Origin: Amphirosellinia nigrospora
Lineage: Eukaryota > Ascomycota > Sordariomycetes > Xylariales > Xylariaceae
Reading direction: 5' to 3'
Length of the DNA stretch: 64,000 nucleotides
NCBI GenBank assembly: GCA_004123355.1
Contig: SCHM01000004.1
Coordinates: 3,318,316 to 3,382,315, forward strand
The notes beneath the pieces were generated by a model. The model worked only from the letters and a program-made list of their open reading frames with translations. It had not been told where the DNA came from and ran no database searches. The position numbers were made by a program, and so were the translations under genes. How positions within the stretch are numbered: the stretch's first letter is position 1; each line of letters begins with the position of its first letter. Shown here in pieces: positions 3,303-59,591 of this stretch.

Positions 3303-4396
3303 TTAGAATATAACATCGTCATCTTCACCCGTAGCCAATATGTCGGCTGGCCCCGAATCGCCCTTTCCTTCATCTGACTTGGCTGCTGCGGTTTTCTTGG
3401 CTTCATTTCGGCATCGGCAGCTGCTACGTCTCGTTGTTTCTTGCCGGCTACCTTCTTGAGTCTGTAAAACTCTTCTCTGTCCAGCTCATCAAGCTCAGAA
3501 TTGATATCTGTATATGTTAGTGAGTACATCACACTGAGCTCAGAGACCTAACGTACACTTGATGGTATTCTCCGTCCTGGGTATAATAACATGCTCACTA
3601 AGAACCACATTAGCCAACACGTCAGAACGAACGCAAAAGGGTTATTACATGGCATTCACTGTTGATATAGTCAGCTTAAAATCCAAGAAAATCTCAGAAT
3701 GAAAGACACTAACCTCTCCGGTTCACGACTTTAATCACCTCGTCCAAGATGACGAAAGCGGTCTGGAGACTTGCCAGCTCAACGAGCGTCTCCACAGCGC
3801 GAGCATATGTCTCGCGGCACCGCTGGACCTGCTGACCACCCTTGCCTAGACCAGTCAGACCAAAATCATTGTTGCCCTCTGTCAGGTAACTCTCGAAAGC
3901 TGGCAAGAAAACACCGGAGACGTTCTCCTGCTTCGTCCGTAGTCTAAATCGCGCCGACTTGGCCGATTCTTGTACTTGGTATCCAATGTCGCCGCCAACG
4001 GCGTATGTGACCTCGGCGAGGGAGAAAGCGGCGATCTGCATAACCCGACCCATCTTGCGTTTCGCCTCATCGATTCGGCGCGTGATTTCTAGAAATCTCG
4101 TTAACACCCGCTCGTACTACATACAATAAAGCCGAGCGTTGTACCTCGAAAGCGCCTGTTGTGATGTCTAGGTCAGCCTGCAGAAGTGTAAAGGTCCGAG
4201 GGAGGGCGTACTTGGTGAGCGCTCACTCTTACGCTTGAGCAAGCTGTGACCGGTTTCAGCGCCCTTTAGCTTTGCCTTCATGATACCCAACGACTGTCTC
4301 GTCGGGAAGACGGCCTCCCGGTCCTAGCAGCAGCAGCGTTAGCTTAAATAGGTATTGTGGTAGTAGCTCCTCTAGAACATACCCAGCGCCCGACAT
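3303..4396 (-). CDS. VMA8: V-type proton ATPase subunit D
   Basis: Subunit D is the central rotor stalk of the V1 sector that acidifies the vacuole. Reading the minus strand, the exons are 4383-4396, 4212-4323, 4145-4155 (11 nt), 3714-4088, 3649-3658 (10 nt), 3557-3597 and 3303-3507. Joined, they give the conserved blocks FPTRQSLGIMKAKLKG, ALTKRFREITRRID, AAFSLAEVTYAVGGDIGYQV, VNAIEHVIIPRTENTIKY and INSELDELDREEFYRLKK, with the acidic tail EDDDVIF. Two of these blocks are complete only if the 11-nt and 10-nt exons are included. One missing base is inferred at 4219-4221 (SE-ALTK) and one at 3400-3401 (EMK-AKK), both in short G runs. The exon 1/exon 2 join is also one base out of frame, so the first five or so residues (MSGA...) are uncertain. 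It is divergent from SYF1. Confidence 0.92.
3649..3658 (-). other. VMA8: 10-nt microexon of VMA8
   Basis: It is flanked on the minus strand by acceptor CAACAG and donor GTAATA. It joins ...CGGAGAG to TGAGCATG to give N-R-R-V-N-A-I-E-H-V, the conserved family sequence. No other in-frame path gives V-N-A-I. Confidence 0.85.
4145..4155 (-). other. VMA8: 11-nt microexon of VMA8
   Basis: It is flanked on the minus strand by acceptor CAACAG and donor GTACAA. It supplies the codons for K-R-F-R-E in the invariant ALTKRFREIT block. Without it the upstream exon (ending ACC AA) and the downstream exon (starting AA ATC ACG) cannot give the family sequence. Confidence 0.85.
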
Positions 4397-5073: not shown

Positions 5074-7669
5074 ATGCCGCCCAACGGCCTCGCCAATGGC
5101 AATCGTGTTGCCCGCCAGCCCGATCTTCACCTTGTCGTAAGCGGCCGCCACTCGTCTATCCCTGGCTTGATGCGCATTGCTAACCGCGACTGCAGTCTGA
5201 CGAAGACGCCATTTACGAACGAGACGTCCTGCGGGATCCGGCAGCACGAAGCCCTGGTTGGCCTACATTCAGTTCAAGTTTCAGCATGGCACGCCACAGG
5301 AGCAGGCCTTCGTCCTCGAGCGCGCCTGTCAGCAGCTCCGAGATCCTACAAGCTTTGGAAAATGGTGACATTGATCCCCGCCACCCCTAACCTCGCGCCC
5401 ACGACCTACTGACACTCTTGATAGTATCTCCGATTCCGTACGAAACATGTCTCGAAGCTCAACGCTGCTGTCTTCGCTGCCGAATACCGAAAGGTCAATG
5501 CGCTGTTCGAACGAGCTCTAATTCTCTTAAATAAAATGCCGCGCATATGGGAGATGTACCTCAAATTCTTGCTGCAACAGCCCTCATCACCCTGACCCGG
5601 CGGACCTTTGACCGAGCTTTACGTGCCCTTCCCATCACTCAGCATAACAGAATATGGGCCATATACCGTCCGTTTGCCAACTCGGCTGGTGGCGACACTG
5701 CCGTCAAGATCTGGAGACGGTACATGCAGGTCCATCCTGAGGACGCCGAGGATTTTATCGAGCTCTTGACGCAAGAAGGCCTGTATACCGAAGCGGTCCA
5801 AAAGTACATGGAGATTCTCAACAACCCGCGCTTCAACAGCAAACAAGGCAAAGGTCACTATGAACTATGGAGTGAGATTGTTGACCTACTTGTTGAGCGT
5901 GCCGTCGAAGTTGAAACTGGCTACGAGACCGGTATCGACGTCGAACGGATTATTCGAAGTGGGATCGAGCGCTTTGCCGATCAAAGAGGAAAACTTTGGT
6001 GTGGCTTGGCTACGTATTGGGCGAGAAGAGGGAGCTTTGAACGCGCGAGAGACGTGTTTGAAGAGGGCATAACCACCGTCATGACCGTCCGCGACTTTAC
6101 TCTTATATTCGACACATATGCTGAATTCGAGGAATCTATCATTGGTGCGCTCATGGAGATGGCTTCAACGCGCGCAGAAGAAGGGGTGGTAGACGAAGAC
6201 GCCGACTTCGATTTAGATATAAGAATGATGCGCTTCGAGCAGCTGATGGACCGAAGACCATTCCTGTTGAATGATGTTTTGCTTCGACAAAATCCGAACA
6301 ACGTCACCGAATGGGAGAAACGGGTCGCTTTGTGGAGTGATAATAAGATTGAGGTCGTCAAGACATATACCGATGCTATTGCTGCTATCCAACCAAAGAA
6401 AGCAGTAGGTGCCTTTCACCAGCTATGGGCGAATTATGCCAAGTTCTACGAAAGGGGGGGAGATATACGAAACGCGAGAATCATCATGGAAAAGGCTGTC
6501 AAAGTTCCGTTCAAATCGGTTGCCGAGCTCGCTGACATGTGGATCGAATGGGCTGAGATGGAACTCCGTAACGAAAACTTCGATGACGCCGTCAAGATCA
6601 TGGCAAAGGCTGTGCAAGCTCCGAAACGCTCGACAGTGGATTACTTTGACGAGACTCTTTCGCCCAACAAAGAGTGCACAAGAGCTGGAAGTTATGGAGT
6701 TTCTACGTTGATCTGGTAGAGAGTGTCAGTTCACTAGATGAAACCAAGAAAGTCTACGAGAGGATATTTGAACTTCGGATCGCTACGCCGCAAACCGTAG
6801 TCAATTATGCCAACCTGCTGGAGGAAAACAAATATTATGAGGAGTCCTTCAAGATCTTTGAGAGGGCTCGACCTTTTCAGTTACCAGTAGCCTTCGAGCT
6901 TTGGAACCTCTATCTCACAAAAGCGGTCGATCGAAAGATTGGGATCGAACGATTACGAGACCTCTTTGAGCAGGCCGTGGAAGATTGTCCAGCCAAGTTC
7001 GCCAAGGTATTGTATCTTATGTACGGTAACCTCGAAGAAGAGCGAGGGCTCGCAAGACATGCTATGCGGATTTACGAGAGAGCAACGAGGGCGGTTTCTG
7101 ACGAGGACCGTGCGGATATGTTCAATTTATATATCACCAAATCCGCCTCGAATTTCGGACTTCCCTCCACTCGACCGATCTACGAGCGGGCCATTGCGGC
7201 TCTACCCGATGAAGAGGCCCGAGACATGTGTCTGAAGTTTGCCGACATGGAAAAACGCCTGGGCGAAATCGACCGCGCTCGCGCTATCTACGGTCACGCA
7301 TCCCAATTCTGTGATCCTCGTACCAACCCGGCGTTCTGGACCAAATGGGAGCAGTTCGAGGTCCAGCATGGCAATGAGGACACTTACAAAGAAATGTTAC
7401 GTATCAAGCGCAGTGTTCAGGCACAGTATAACACTGATGTCAACTTTATCGCGTCTCAAGCCATTGCCCGTACCCAACAAGCCCGCCTAGCGGAAACAAA
7501 TGGGGATGCAGAAGTAGCAGACGCCATGGAACAACTCGAGCGCCAAGCACGAGCACCTACAGGCTTTGTCGCCTCAAGCACGGGAATTGCTGGAACCCTA
7601 CCGAAGGAGCAACCCGTGGTAGCATCGAACCCGGACGCTATTGATATCGATGGCATGGATGATGATTGA
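5074..7669 (+). CDS. SYF1: Pre-mRNA-splicing factor SYF1 (HAT-repeat, NineTeen complex)
   Basis: SYF1/XAB2 is a nuclear scaffold of the Prp19-associated complex, built almost wholly of half-a-TPR (HAT) repeats. Exon 1 (5074-5136) gives MPPNGLANGNRVARQPD. Exon 2 (5196-5364) gives SDEDAIYERDVLRDP and the first repeats. Exon 3 (5425-7669) carries the rest, including RIWEMYLKFLLQQPLITLTR, ELWSEIVDLLVE, KLWSFYVDLVESV, AFWTKWEQFEVQHGNEDTYK and MLRIKRSVQAQYNTDVNFI, the strong SYF1 signature near the C-terminus, then an acidic tail DIDGMDDD. Four single-base omissions are needed, near 5240, 5336, 5583 and 6664. Three fall in C runs (for example CCCC read as CCC). The total of about 830 residues fits the family. 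Confidence 0.93.
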
Positions 7670-49315: not shown

Positions 49316-51913
49316 ATGGCTGGCCGTCTACTTGGAATACAGGAGGGCGCTCACGGCACGGTCACAACTCCCCGCTCCCCGTCTACGAGAAATCTCGCAC
49401 GCCAAGCAGAGAGCGCCTTACCAACGACTCTTACGACGAATCTGATTACGATGAATATTCTACGACATCGTCACCGGGAACAGGCTCCTCGCGCCAAACC
49501 TCCGCCAGCGCCTCTCTCGCCGTTCCCATTTTATCGAAGCCACGCCTTCCTCTTGGGAGAGGACCAGGAAGGACACTTTTATCGCTTACCGAATAAAGTG
49601 ATTCGATACCTCTGCTTTGGCCTCGTATCTTTTATCGTCTTGTTAATCTTGACGTTGGCGCGGGCGAGCCACAACGAAAACAGGGCGTTCGTCGAAGGCA
49701 AAGTAGGGAAGAAGCCGCCGGCACCCCATATATGGGAATCCTACCCTTTCCTGACCAGGTATTATGGCGGCATAAGGACCCTGGTCCCGAAAGCCCAGAA
49801 CAAGCCCGAGTATCCACGTGCCGAGGATGAAATACCCCTAGACAAGCTGGGACTCACCCAAGATATTCATAATCCCGATGCCGACCAAGCTCAGGGAAGA
49901 GGCATCCCTCCGAGCAAAGAATTCGATTTACATCCCCAAAGCGTCTTCAAAACCAGCCCTGAACCGTTCACTGGGTGCTTCTTGGACAAGGAGCACAAGG
50001 TCCGAGTGCCCCCCATCCGCTACTACGACGGGCGCCCAAATGGTTTCCCGGATTCCGTGTTAGGTTCCTATGAGCTTTTCGGATTCCCCGAAGACGTCTG
50101 TTTTGAGCGCTATGGCAAGTATGGTCCTTATGGTCTGGGCTACTCCGCGAGATCTGGTGGTCTCGGTGCCGGAGAACATGGTGATAGAGAGGGATTCGAA
50201 TCCACCTGGGAGAAAGTACCGCGGGTTGATTGGCGATCAATAAACTGGGCCGAGATCCAACGACAATGTTATCAAGAAAATGCTGCTCGCTACAAGCCTA
50301 TGCCTGCAAGACAGCCCACGCCACAAGGCTTCTTTGTCGATGAGGGCATGTTCGACGACGACATTGTTGCCAAACGCCTTACTGCTCGAGACACCATAAA
50401 TAATGAGCCGTCGGCGTCCGGTACTACAGACGCTGAAGTAGGTTCACCCTCGGTTTTAGCCACACACGAAGGGCCTAAGGCAGCCAAAGGCAATGTCTTG
50501 CCTAGAACAGCTGTCGTTTGTGCGATGTTGGGACGAGTTTCTATGGAGGGAAGAGGATGTCATGAATTTGCGTTCGCTGATAACAGAACTGGCGCTGGCT
50601 TCAGGGGGTCGTTACGACGTCCACCTCCTCGTCCAGGTCAAGAATGATGCGGCCCATCCAATTTGGGCTGATTCGGATACTTACAAGCGCCGGATCGATG
50701 AAGCTATACCTGCGGAGTTTCGCGGTATTGTCACCTTATGGACAGAAACCCAGATGCTGGCTCTTTACCAAGGTATATATGACCTCTGGGCCCGAGGCCC
50801 AGATCTGCCCGTTCATGGCGTTTATCGCGGCCTACAAATGGCCATGCATATTTTGCATACATGCATCCCGAATATGATTATTACTGGCAATGGGAGATGG
50901 ATATCCGCTATACTGGTCACTACTATGATCTGTTTTCCAAAGTCGAAGGATGGGCGAAGGAGCAGCCACGCAAAGGGCTATGGGAACGAAATGCTCGATT
51001 CTATCTACCATCCGTGCATGGGTCATGGGAGGACTTTAAACAGATGGCCAGGGTGCAGACTGAGATGGGAGTCAAGGGTGCCGACAATATTTGGGACAAC
51101 GTACCAGGCGCTGAGAAGGACAAGGCGAACCGTGGCGACAAGCCCATCTGGGGTCCGGAACGACCCAACGACCCGAAGGATTGGTTTGATCCCGACAACG
51201 ATCCCGTACCACCTACTACGTACGACAAGGACAAATACGCATGGGGTGTGGGCGATGCTGCTGATTACATTACCTTGAACCCATTGTTTGATCCCGAACA
51301 CACGACCTGGGGTCTGACGGATGATATCACCGGATACAACGAAGGCGACGACAACGGAAAGCCCCCGCGACGCGTCCAGATCATAACAGCCTCGCGCATG
51401 TCGCGCACCCTCCTCCTGGCGATGCACAAAGAGACGGCCTTCCTGAAGCACCACGCCTTCCCCGAGATGTGGCCGGGCACCGTGGCCCTGCACCACGGCT
51501 TCAAGGCCGTGTACGTGCCGCACCCCGTCTACGTCGACCGCGAGTGGCCGACCGAGGTGCTGGCGCAGACGCTGAACAACGGCAAGAACGGCGCCAGCGG
51601 CGGCGCGCGCACCTCTGTGTTCGGCGACCGCGAGCACAACCTCGAGGGGCTGAGCTGGTTCTACCGCACCGGCTTCTCGCCCAACCTGTACCGCCGCTGG
51701 CTCGGCCTCTCGGTCGAGAACAACGTCGGCGGCGAGGAGTTCGAGCTCGTCGTCGACGAGAGCAAGAACGGCACCAGCGTCGACGAGATGCGCGGCGGCG
51801 AGGGCCGCATGTGTCTCCCGCCCATGCTCGTCCACCCCGTCAAGGACGTCGTGCTCCCCGTCGAGGAGAAACTGCCCGAGCTCACGATCCCCGAGTCGGA
51901 CCCGGCGGCCTAG
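49316..51913 (+). CDS. DUF3405 family type II membrane protein
   Basis: This is a fungal DUF3405 protein: a cytosolic N-terminus, one membrane helix (IRYLCFGLVSFIVLLILTLA, about 49600-49660), then a large lumenal or external domain. Family blocks are FTGCFLDKEHKVRVPPIRYY, SYELFGFPEDVCFERYGKYG, then WDEFLWREEDVMNLRSLITE, HPEYDYYWQWEMDIRYTGHY, WERNARFYLPSVHGSWEDFK, RVQIITASRMSRTLLLAMHK, and FPEMWPGTVALHHGFKAVYV with HPVYVDREWP. The acidic WEMDIRYTGHYY stretch recalls glycosyltransferase DxD regions, but no activity is established to my knowledge. The N-terminal 80 codons are uncertain: a different frame gives a more typical acidic Ser-rich leader (RERLTNDSYDESDYDEYST). Breaks of one base occur near 49400, 49540, 50510 and 50850. 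Codon third positions become extremely GC-rich after about 51365. Confidence 0.85.
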
Positions 51914-57917: not shown

Positions 57918-58370
57918 TTGTAGATCTATGCACCCCAGGAACGGGAGAGAGACAGTGTTGGTGGGAATGAGAATGGAAACGAGAGACGGGAGCTGGATAG
58001 CCACTACCCGGTGGCATGTGCTTTTGGGGAATTTGGATCTTGACACTTTTCCACAGATGATGACAGTTTCCCCATTGTCCCAGCTAATCGGCTTAGCCAC
58101 AGATTTACATGCGGGGAAGCGCATTGTGGCTGAATAGGTATGGTAGGTACGTTGATGTGTAGCATGTCGCACACTAACCTTATTAGGTACGCTGCTTGTA
58201 TACGTATGTACTAAGTAGATACACTATCGGGCCCACTAATTTCTCTAATGCAAGAGCGCGATCTAGCTTACCGCCTAAATTTTGTTGGCAGAATAGTCCG
58301 GACATGATATATACTAAATCATATCGCGTCGCAGGAAGCTTTCAAGCCAGCTTAAACGGTGGTCGGGAAG
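57918..58370. promoter_or_regulatory. Divergent SEC66/RCL1 promoter region
   Basis: This 453-bp gap lies between divergent genes. TAGGTATGGTAGGTACG (near 58135-58151) and TAGGTACG (near 58185) belong to the window's recurring TACCTA family. No other site is certain. Confidence 0.45.
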
Positions 58371-59591
58371 ATGTCGGCCTCACGACCTGAATTCGTCAAA
58401 CTGACAGGCCACAAGAACTTCACCCAGCGACTTGTACTCGCAACCCTTACCGGTCGACCCCTACACATCTCCAAGATCCGACCCAATTCCCCCACCAGTC
58501 CCGGTCTCGCCCCGCATGAGGTCTCGTTTCTTCGTCTCCTCGAAGCTATCACCAATGGCAGCTCTATGCAGATCTCCTACACCGGAACGACAATAACATA
58601 CCAGCCGGGACTCATCACCGGCGCTGTAGCCGGTTATGGCGCAGGCGACGGCGACATCATCGAACATAATATCCCAGCAACGTGTACCCGGGGCATCACA
58701 TATTTCCTCTTGCCCCTTTGTCTGCTGGCCCCTTTCTCCAAGGCTCACATGAATGTACGCTTCTCCGGCCCGGGCGTGATCACGGCGGCCACTGAGACGG
58801 GCGACCTGTCAATCGACTCTTTCCGCACTGCGATCCTTCCTCTATATGACCTATTCGGCATACCAGTGGTCCGAATCGAGTTGCGAGTTTTACAGCGGTC
58901 ATGCACTGGACAAAGAGGAAGCGGTGGTGCCGGCATAGTTGAACTTAGGTTCGCGAGCCAAGTACGCCTACCCAAAACACTACATCTTCATAGGAATCCT
59001 GGGCGGATAAAACGAATACGAGGTGTCGCATACGCAACTGGAGTGTCCGCCTCGAACAATGCTCGTATGATACATTCTGCGCGAGAGGTGCTGAATGCCT
59101 TTTGCGCGGATATCCATATTGCCGCACAGTACGACCAAGCGCCGCTAGTCGCAGACCTAGGAGACAAGGCGGGAGGGAAGAAGAGAATGGGCATTGGCTT
59201 TGGTCTCAGCTTAGTTGCTGAATCAAACGTCACCGGTGTGCTATTTTCAGCAGATACTGTCGTGCCATCGAAAGGAGGCATGATTCCAGAGGATATCGGG
59301 AAGAGGTGTGCGTATCAGCTCCTGGACTCGATTAGTCAGGGTGGCTGTGTCAGTAGAGCAGCGGCTCCGACAGCGTTGACACTGATGGCGATGGGATCCG
59401 AAGACGTCGGCCGTCTTCGGGTTGGGAGAGATATAATAGGTAGCGAAGAAATTATAGAGTTAGCGCGAGATTTGAAGAAGTTTGGCGCAAGTAGTTGGGG
59501 CATAAGAGACGTAGACGAAGACGACACAGACGACATCATGATTGCCGTCAAAGGATCGGGTCTAGGGAATGTGAGCAGAAAGGTCGCGTAA
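58371..59591 (+). CDS. RCL1: RNA 3'-terminal phosphate cyclase-like protein Rcl1
   Basis: Rcl1 acts with Bms1 in early cleavage of pre-rRNA in the nucleolus. The single exon encodes 406 residues with no frame break. ATG at 58371 gives MSASRPEFVKLTGHKNFTQR with the usual LVLATLTGRPLHISKIR and GLAPHEVSFLRLLEAITNGS. Later family blocks are GRGITYFLLPLCLL-like, GPGVITAATETGDLSIDSFR, RGVAYATGVSASNNARMIHS, LVAESNVTGVLFSADTV and PEDIGKRCAYQLLDSISQGG. A short acidic insertion near the end (RDVDEDDTDDI) is not unusual. It resembles RNA cyclase, but Rcl1 proteins lack the cyclase catalytic His, in keeping with a non-cyclase role. Its 3' end lies only 52 bp from that of the DSC4-like gene. Confidence 0.95.
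   Translation: MSASRPEFVKLTGHKNFTQRLVLATLTGRPLHISKIRPNSPTSPGLAPHEVSFLRLLEAITNGSSMQISYTGTTITYQPGLITGAVAGYGAGDGDIIEHNIPATCTRGITYFLLPLCLLAPFSKAHMNVRFSGPGVITAATETGDLSIDSFRTAILPLYDLFGIPVVRIELRVLQRSCTGQRGSGGAGIVELRFASQVRLPKTLHLHRNPGRIKRIRGVAYATGVSASNNARMIHSAREVLNAFCADIHIAAQYDQAPLVADLGDKAGGKKRMGIGFGLSLVAESNVTGVLFSADTVVPSKGGMIPEDIGKRCAYQLLDSISQGGCVSRAAAPTALTLMAMGSEDVGRLRVGRDIIGSEEIIELARDLKKFGASSWGIRDVDEDDTDDIMIAVKGSGLGNVSRKVA

Follow-up and report, generated by a model that had tools for sequence, protein, structure and literature searches.

Two putative constitutive microexons (11 and 10 nt) in the VMA8 gene for V-ATPase subunit D of Amphirosellinia nigrospora

The VMA8 gene of Amphirosellinia nigrospora, which encodes V-ATPase subunit D, raises the question of whether two segments of 11 and 10 nt lying between short introns are genuine coding exons and, if so, what kind of exons they are. 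The gene was analysed in a stretch of 64,000 nt (the window), where it was modelled with seven exons at positions 4396–3303 of the minus strand (Table 1). All six introns were of the GT–AG type and 49–59 nt long. The start codon of E1 is an assumed one; in yeast, subunit D begins with MSG. E3 read GCGCTTTCGAG (11 nt, 4155–4145), with CAACAG before it and GTACAA after it, and E5 read TGAATGCCAT (10 nt, 3658–3649), with CAACAG before it and GTAATA after it. The coordinates, lengths and bounding dinucleotides proposed for these segments in the first-pass annotation were right when re-read on the minus strand, and two microexons in VMA8 were the best reading of the DNA. Both were internal exons of at most 15 nt between GT–AG introns of 51–56 nt, and each started and ended within a codon. 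The codon at intron 2 is cut after its second base and the codon at intron 3 after its first; intron 4 follows the first base of its codon, and intron 5 the second.

Table 1. Exons and introns of the modelled VMA8 gene (positions in the window).
Feature	Positions	Strand	Description
E1	4383..4396	-	First 14 coding nt from the start codon (MSGA..) in the model; join to E2 out of frame
Intron 1	4324..4382	-	59 nt, GTATGT...CTAG
E2	4212..4323	-	112 nt, broken near 4223: the frame of DREAVFPTRQSLGIMKAKLKGAETGHSLLKRKSE differs from that of ALTK
Intron 2	4156..4211	-	56 nt, GTACGC...CAACAG; branch-like GCTGACC
E3	4145..4155	-	Microexon of 11 nt; completes K (1 base), encodes R-F-R and opens E (1 base)
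Intron 3	4089..4144	-	56 nt, GTACAA...TTCTAG; branch-like GTTAACG; donor +5 = A
E4	3714..4088	-	375 nt, subunit D core; PF01813 9.1e-29, PDB phmmer 1.7e-55
Intron 4	3659..3713	-	55 nt, GTTAGT...CAACAG; branch-like GCTGACT
E5	3649..3658	-	Microexon of 10 nt; completes V (2 bases), encodes N-A and opens I (2 bases)
Intron 5	3598..3648	-	51 nt, GTAATA...TTCTTAG; branch-like GCTAATG (TCTGACG further up); donor +5 = T
E6	3557..3597	-	41 nt, EHVIIPRTENTIK
Intron 6	3508..3556	-	49 nt, GTACGT...ATACAG; branch-like ACTAACA
E7	3303..3507	-	Last exon to stop; broken near 3401, with INSELDELDREEFYRLKKV..DAEMK and the ..DDDVIF end in separate frames

The locus matched the PF01813 profile with 105.6 bits against a curated cut-off of 25.7 bits. 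E4 alone gave 101.1 bits, and the pieces in the first frame of E2 (18.1 bits, E = 0.0026) and in E7 (23.2 bits, 7e-05), each under the cut-off by itself, matched the profile in order. A profile search of the genome, in which only the best candidates were scored, found this one PF01813 locus. When E4 with a few flanking bases was compared with the subunit D chains of the PDB by phmmer, the best match was 3j9t_M, a yeast chain (189.4 bits). The spliced product of 185 residues from ALTK to DAEMK aligned with the same chain without gaps over residues 38–222 and scored 298.5 bits, a gain owed to E6 and E7 as well as to the microexons. The E4 protein, scanned once against each of two collections without a fungal set (genome_contigs and viral_contigs), found no VMA8 relative there.

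The residues encoded by the two microexons were conserved in the family, as judged from four printed alignments among the 12 distinct PDB sequences matched. The stretch at the first microexon, which was covered in 8 of the 12, read KRFR, VQFR, LRFR and LRFR in the four alignments. The stretch at the second read RRVNAIEHV in three of them and RRVNALENV in one. The two peptides had been described as family-invariant; according to these alignments they are strongly conserved, not invariant.

VMA8 lay between plus-strand genes, with two RRM-bearing frames at 1928–2870 (convergent) on one side and SYF1, a pre-mRNA splicing factor gene, at 5535–7669 (divergent) on the other. Both neighbours are apparently RNA-processing genes, and the RRM-bearing frames presumably resemble U1A/U2B''. 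Elsewhere in the window, an open frame at 58356–59591 carried RNA 3'-terminal phosphate cyclase together with its insert domain. A scan of the window against Rfam at the gathering threshold gave no match.

The joins possible within a bounded stretch around each microexon were enumerated, unspliced or with one or two introns; donors could be GT or GC, acceptors had to be AG, and no intron could be shorter than 40 nt. The joins were scored against the corresponding stretch of 3j9t_M. Around E3 there were 78 joins (1 unspliced, 33 one-intron and 44 two-intron), of which 24 were open in frame. The microexon join ranked at the top with a score of 68, and the next score was 54, shared by two open joins, one with its acceptor 12 nt upstream of E3 and the other with its donor 12 nt downstream of the exon; either would insert four in-frame residues. 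Around E5, 8 of the 50 joins (1, 22 and 27, respectively) were open in frame, and the microexon join again ranked at the top, with a score of 89 against 63 for the next. A one-intron join without E5 was also open (IKVVNRRGYEHVIIPRTENT), but it scored 58 against 89 and lost VNAI. No other join fitted the model peptide over its full length, the target in this comparison being the model itself. By the enumeration, the claim that the conserved peptides are restored only by the tiny exons holds for bounded joins with at most two introns. In dinucleotide shuffles of the two gaps, a segment bounded by AG and GT that could supply the missing residues arose in 0 of 300,000 and 1 of 300,000 trials, rates that understate chance because the codon phase was fixed, as were the outer splice sites. 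Furthermore, all six VMA8 introns contained a [CT]T[AG]A[CT] motif whose A lay 9–17 nt from the 3' end, and in mononucleotide shuffles of single introns such a motif occurred 8–30 nt from the end in 16–31%.

The spliced gene did not give a single intact ORF. Two frame breaks were clear, one near 4223 in E2, where the start of ALTK is 11 nt from the intron 2 donor, and one near 3401 in E7, which separates the frame of DAEMK from that of the DDDVIF end. A third break appeared at E1/E2 as modelled and hinges on the assumed start codon and donor. All breaks were left unmended throughout. The statement that both phases fit was therefore borne out locally, at the microexons, but not across the upstream exon, since E2 reads LLKRKSE and ALTK in different frames. 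Breaks of the frame were also seen in other genes of the assembly (48.1 Mb in 11 contigs). In SYF1, the frame changed at 6662–6677 of the window with no space for an intron, and the two profile matches, one reaching position 95 of the profile and the other starting at 91, overlapped in the DNA. In a DUF3405 gene, three overlapping frames met at 50517–50518 and 50849–50861 with continuous profile positions and no intron space. In a beta-tubulin-like gene (locus L005, minus strand), the frame changed within an exon after GQLFRP, judged against the expected tubulin sequence. Because these intron-free breaks occurred in SYF1, the DUF3405 gene and the beta-tubulin-like gene, the breaks in VMA8 were read as assembly indels, and residual assembly indels are the simplest account of them. 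The breaks in VMA8 and the other genes mean that base-level accuracy was imperfect, which counts against the microexon reading; however, it is unlikely that an indel created the microexons, because both fit the peptides, the phases and the splice sites.

The consequences of skipping the microexons and of keeping the introns were read from the gene model. The lengths of 11 and 10 nt are not divisible by three, so the loss of either exon shifts the downstream frame. Skipping of E3 gave ALTKNHAPNR followed by a stop, and skipping of E5 shifted the frame into stops. When both were skipped, the frame was regained only after E4 had been read out of frame with stops. Skipping thus left no usable frame of the kind that a switch-like microexon would leave. 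Retention of intron 4 or intron 5 brought a stop two codons in. With intron 3 retained, the stop came at residue 22, roughly 15 codons in, and with intron 2 retained the frame was shifted and met no stop until residue 95. These outcomes indicate that both exons are needed for subunit D.

Three other explanations, a decayed copy, a nested intron and a regulated switch, were each considered and rejected. The frame breaks, two of them clear and the third at E1/E2 as modelled, could mark a decaying or non-functional VMA8 copy in which the microexons are relics of an already broken frame, but no second PF01813 locus came up among the best candidates scored in the genome, E4 was open across all of its 375 nt, the product was close to subunit D of the PDB, and the intron-free breaks in SYF1, the DUF3405 gene and the beta-tubulin-like gene suit assembly indels that are spread over the genome; decay is accordingly quite improbable. 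The segments might also be non-coding parts of a stwintron or other nested intron, so that the whole stretch from E2 to E4 or from E4 to E6 is removed. Nested introns are known in the Pezizomycotina (PMC6616335), and the one-intron join that omits E5 stays open. However, the direct E2–E4 join shifts the frame, conserved residues would be lost, and one-intron joins of the right length numbered 0 of 33 and 0 of 18 in the two regions, under slightly tighter bounds than in the enumeration above. No join of the right length removed the whole stretch and kept the outer exons in frame, one shorter join around E5 stayed open, and a nested intron is hardly credible.

The donors give a slim chance to regulation, in which condition-dependent inclusion of E3 or E5, or removal of the adjoining introns, would set the level of V-ATPase in a manner comparable to Xlr2. 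The donors that follow the two microexons (4144–4139, GTACAA, and 3648–3643, GTAATA) lacked G at +5, whereas all 11 of the other donors compared had it (four in VMA8 and seven in beta-tubulin), a contrast with a chance of 1 in 78 that was noticed post hoc. The comparison covered seven beta-tubulin introns, read by eye and re-checked by script, and the six VMA8 introns; when introns were called automatically at tubulin, actin and ATPase loci (12 exon pairs), none could be trusted, in part owing to frame breaks. A kept intron 5 or intron 3 would moreover bring an early stop. Nevertheless, the contrast between the donors is small, a kept intron 4, whose donor has G, also stops two codons in, the residues of both exons are conserved, and skipping yields no useful protein. 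Three matches to U1 snRNA were found in the genome, all of them below the Rfam gathering score; two of the three were read, and these U1-like genes start with the canonical ATACTTACCT (locus L018 from 1501, plus strand; locus L019 from 1658, minus strand). As a long shot, the donors without G at +5 may make the intron downstream of each microexon the last to leave, and VMA8 could then tune the supply of the V-ATPase rotor through delayed splicing. The peptides of both microexons belong to the rotor shaft.

It is very probable, judging from the sequence, that VMA8 carries two constitutive, frame-essential microexons that are spliced by sequential intron definition. The gene would be an ordinary VMA8 with six short GT–AG introns, in which two pairs of closely neighbouring introns leave no more than 11 and 10 nt of coding exon between them. 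Each flanking intron would be recognised across itself, with its own donor, branch site and acceptor. Fungi are thought to use intron definition, according to PMC2219887, and the sequence was consistent with it in that all six introns combine a length of 49–59 nt with a branch-like site. Introns of this kind would make recognition of the exon itself unnecessary. The contention that such exons challenge exon-definition models is therefore unsupported, since fungi pair splice sites across short introns and intron definition sets no minimum exon length, provided that the host is such a fungus. The limit set by an exon of 10–11 nt is on simultaneous assembly on both neighbouring introns. Because one such exon cannot hold two spliceosomes at once, the flanking introns would probably be removed one after the other, an order suggested by analogy with plants, in which the two introns beside a microexon are probably spliced out consecutively (PMC8831610). 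The microexons would be leftovers of intron placement and not switches. We infer all three elements, namely, the splicing as modelled, the constitutive inclusion and the sequential order, from the DNA.

The microexons thus appear real on the sequence evidence and would be ordinary in kind, although unusual in their size and in their pairing within one gene. If RNA confirms them, VMA8 would offer a clean pair of constitutive exons of 10–11 nt in a housekeeping gene with short introns. They would also serve as a test case for the order of spliceosomes around an exon too short for two, and automatic gene models of fungal VMA8 may be wrong.

A microexon in VMA8 was not reported among the matches listed in the open-licence literature, and in the available parts of PMC4545319 and PMC3990503 microexons came up only as a matter of aligner settings. 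Microexons of other genes are described in several sources. The Xlr2 gene of Trichoderma virens has a 20-nt microexon that was proven by RNA-seq and is switch-like (PMC11121469). It resembles the VMA8 exons as a very short internal coding exon of a filamentous ascomycete that was absent from the annotated gene model, whereas it differs in its length (20 nt against 11 and 10 nt), in its regulation by glucose, in belonging to a transcription factor and in its evidence, which was RNA-seq there and inference here. Exon II of Aspergillus niger rtnA (15 nt) is likewise a tiny exon under intron definition in the Pezizomycotina, but it adjoins a stwintron and can be skipped (PMC6616335). In Phanerochaete, nearly one third of the P450 genes had microexons (PMC1184071). 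The shortest exon of 6 bp and the frequent introns of 45–55 bp in P. chrysosporium are close to the VMA8 arrangement, although the host is a basidiomycete and the genes form a large multigene family (PMC1184071). Codon-sized microexons in the NACHT-ankyrin family of Tuber melanosporum are cited in PMC4986451. Plant microexons of at most 15 nt are also coding and often missed in annotation; they differ in their plant hosts, in forming conserved clusters traced by RNA-seq and in an upstream intron whose removal tends to be delayed (PMC8831610). The claim that gene finders miss such exons was supported by two of these sources (PMC11121469; PMC8831610).

A likeness within the same genome was exon 2 of the beta-tubulin-like genes, which was 24 nt long in both of the loci found (L003, 1159–1182; L005, minus strand). 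It is a short internal coding exon with short GT–AG introns on both sides, as in VMA8, but it is more than twice as long as either microexon and is a multiple of three. The supposed rarity of the VMA8 pair was in part overstated, since fungal microexons have already been reported; even so, most of these short exons are longer than the 11 and 10 nt found here, and in VMA8 two such exons occur in the same gene.
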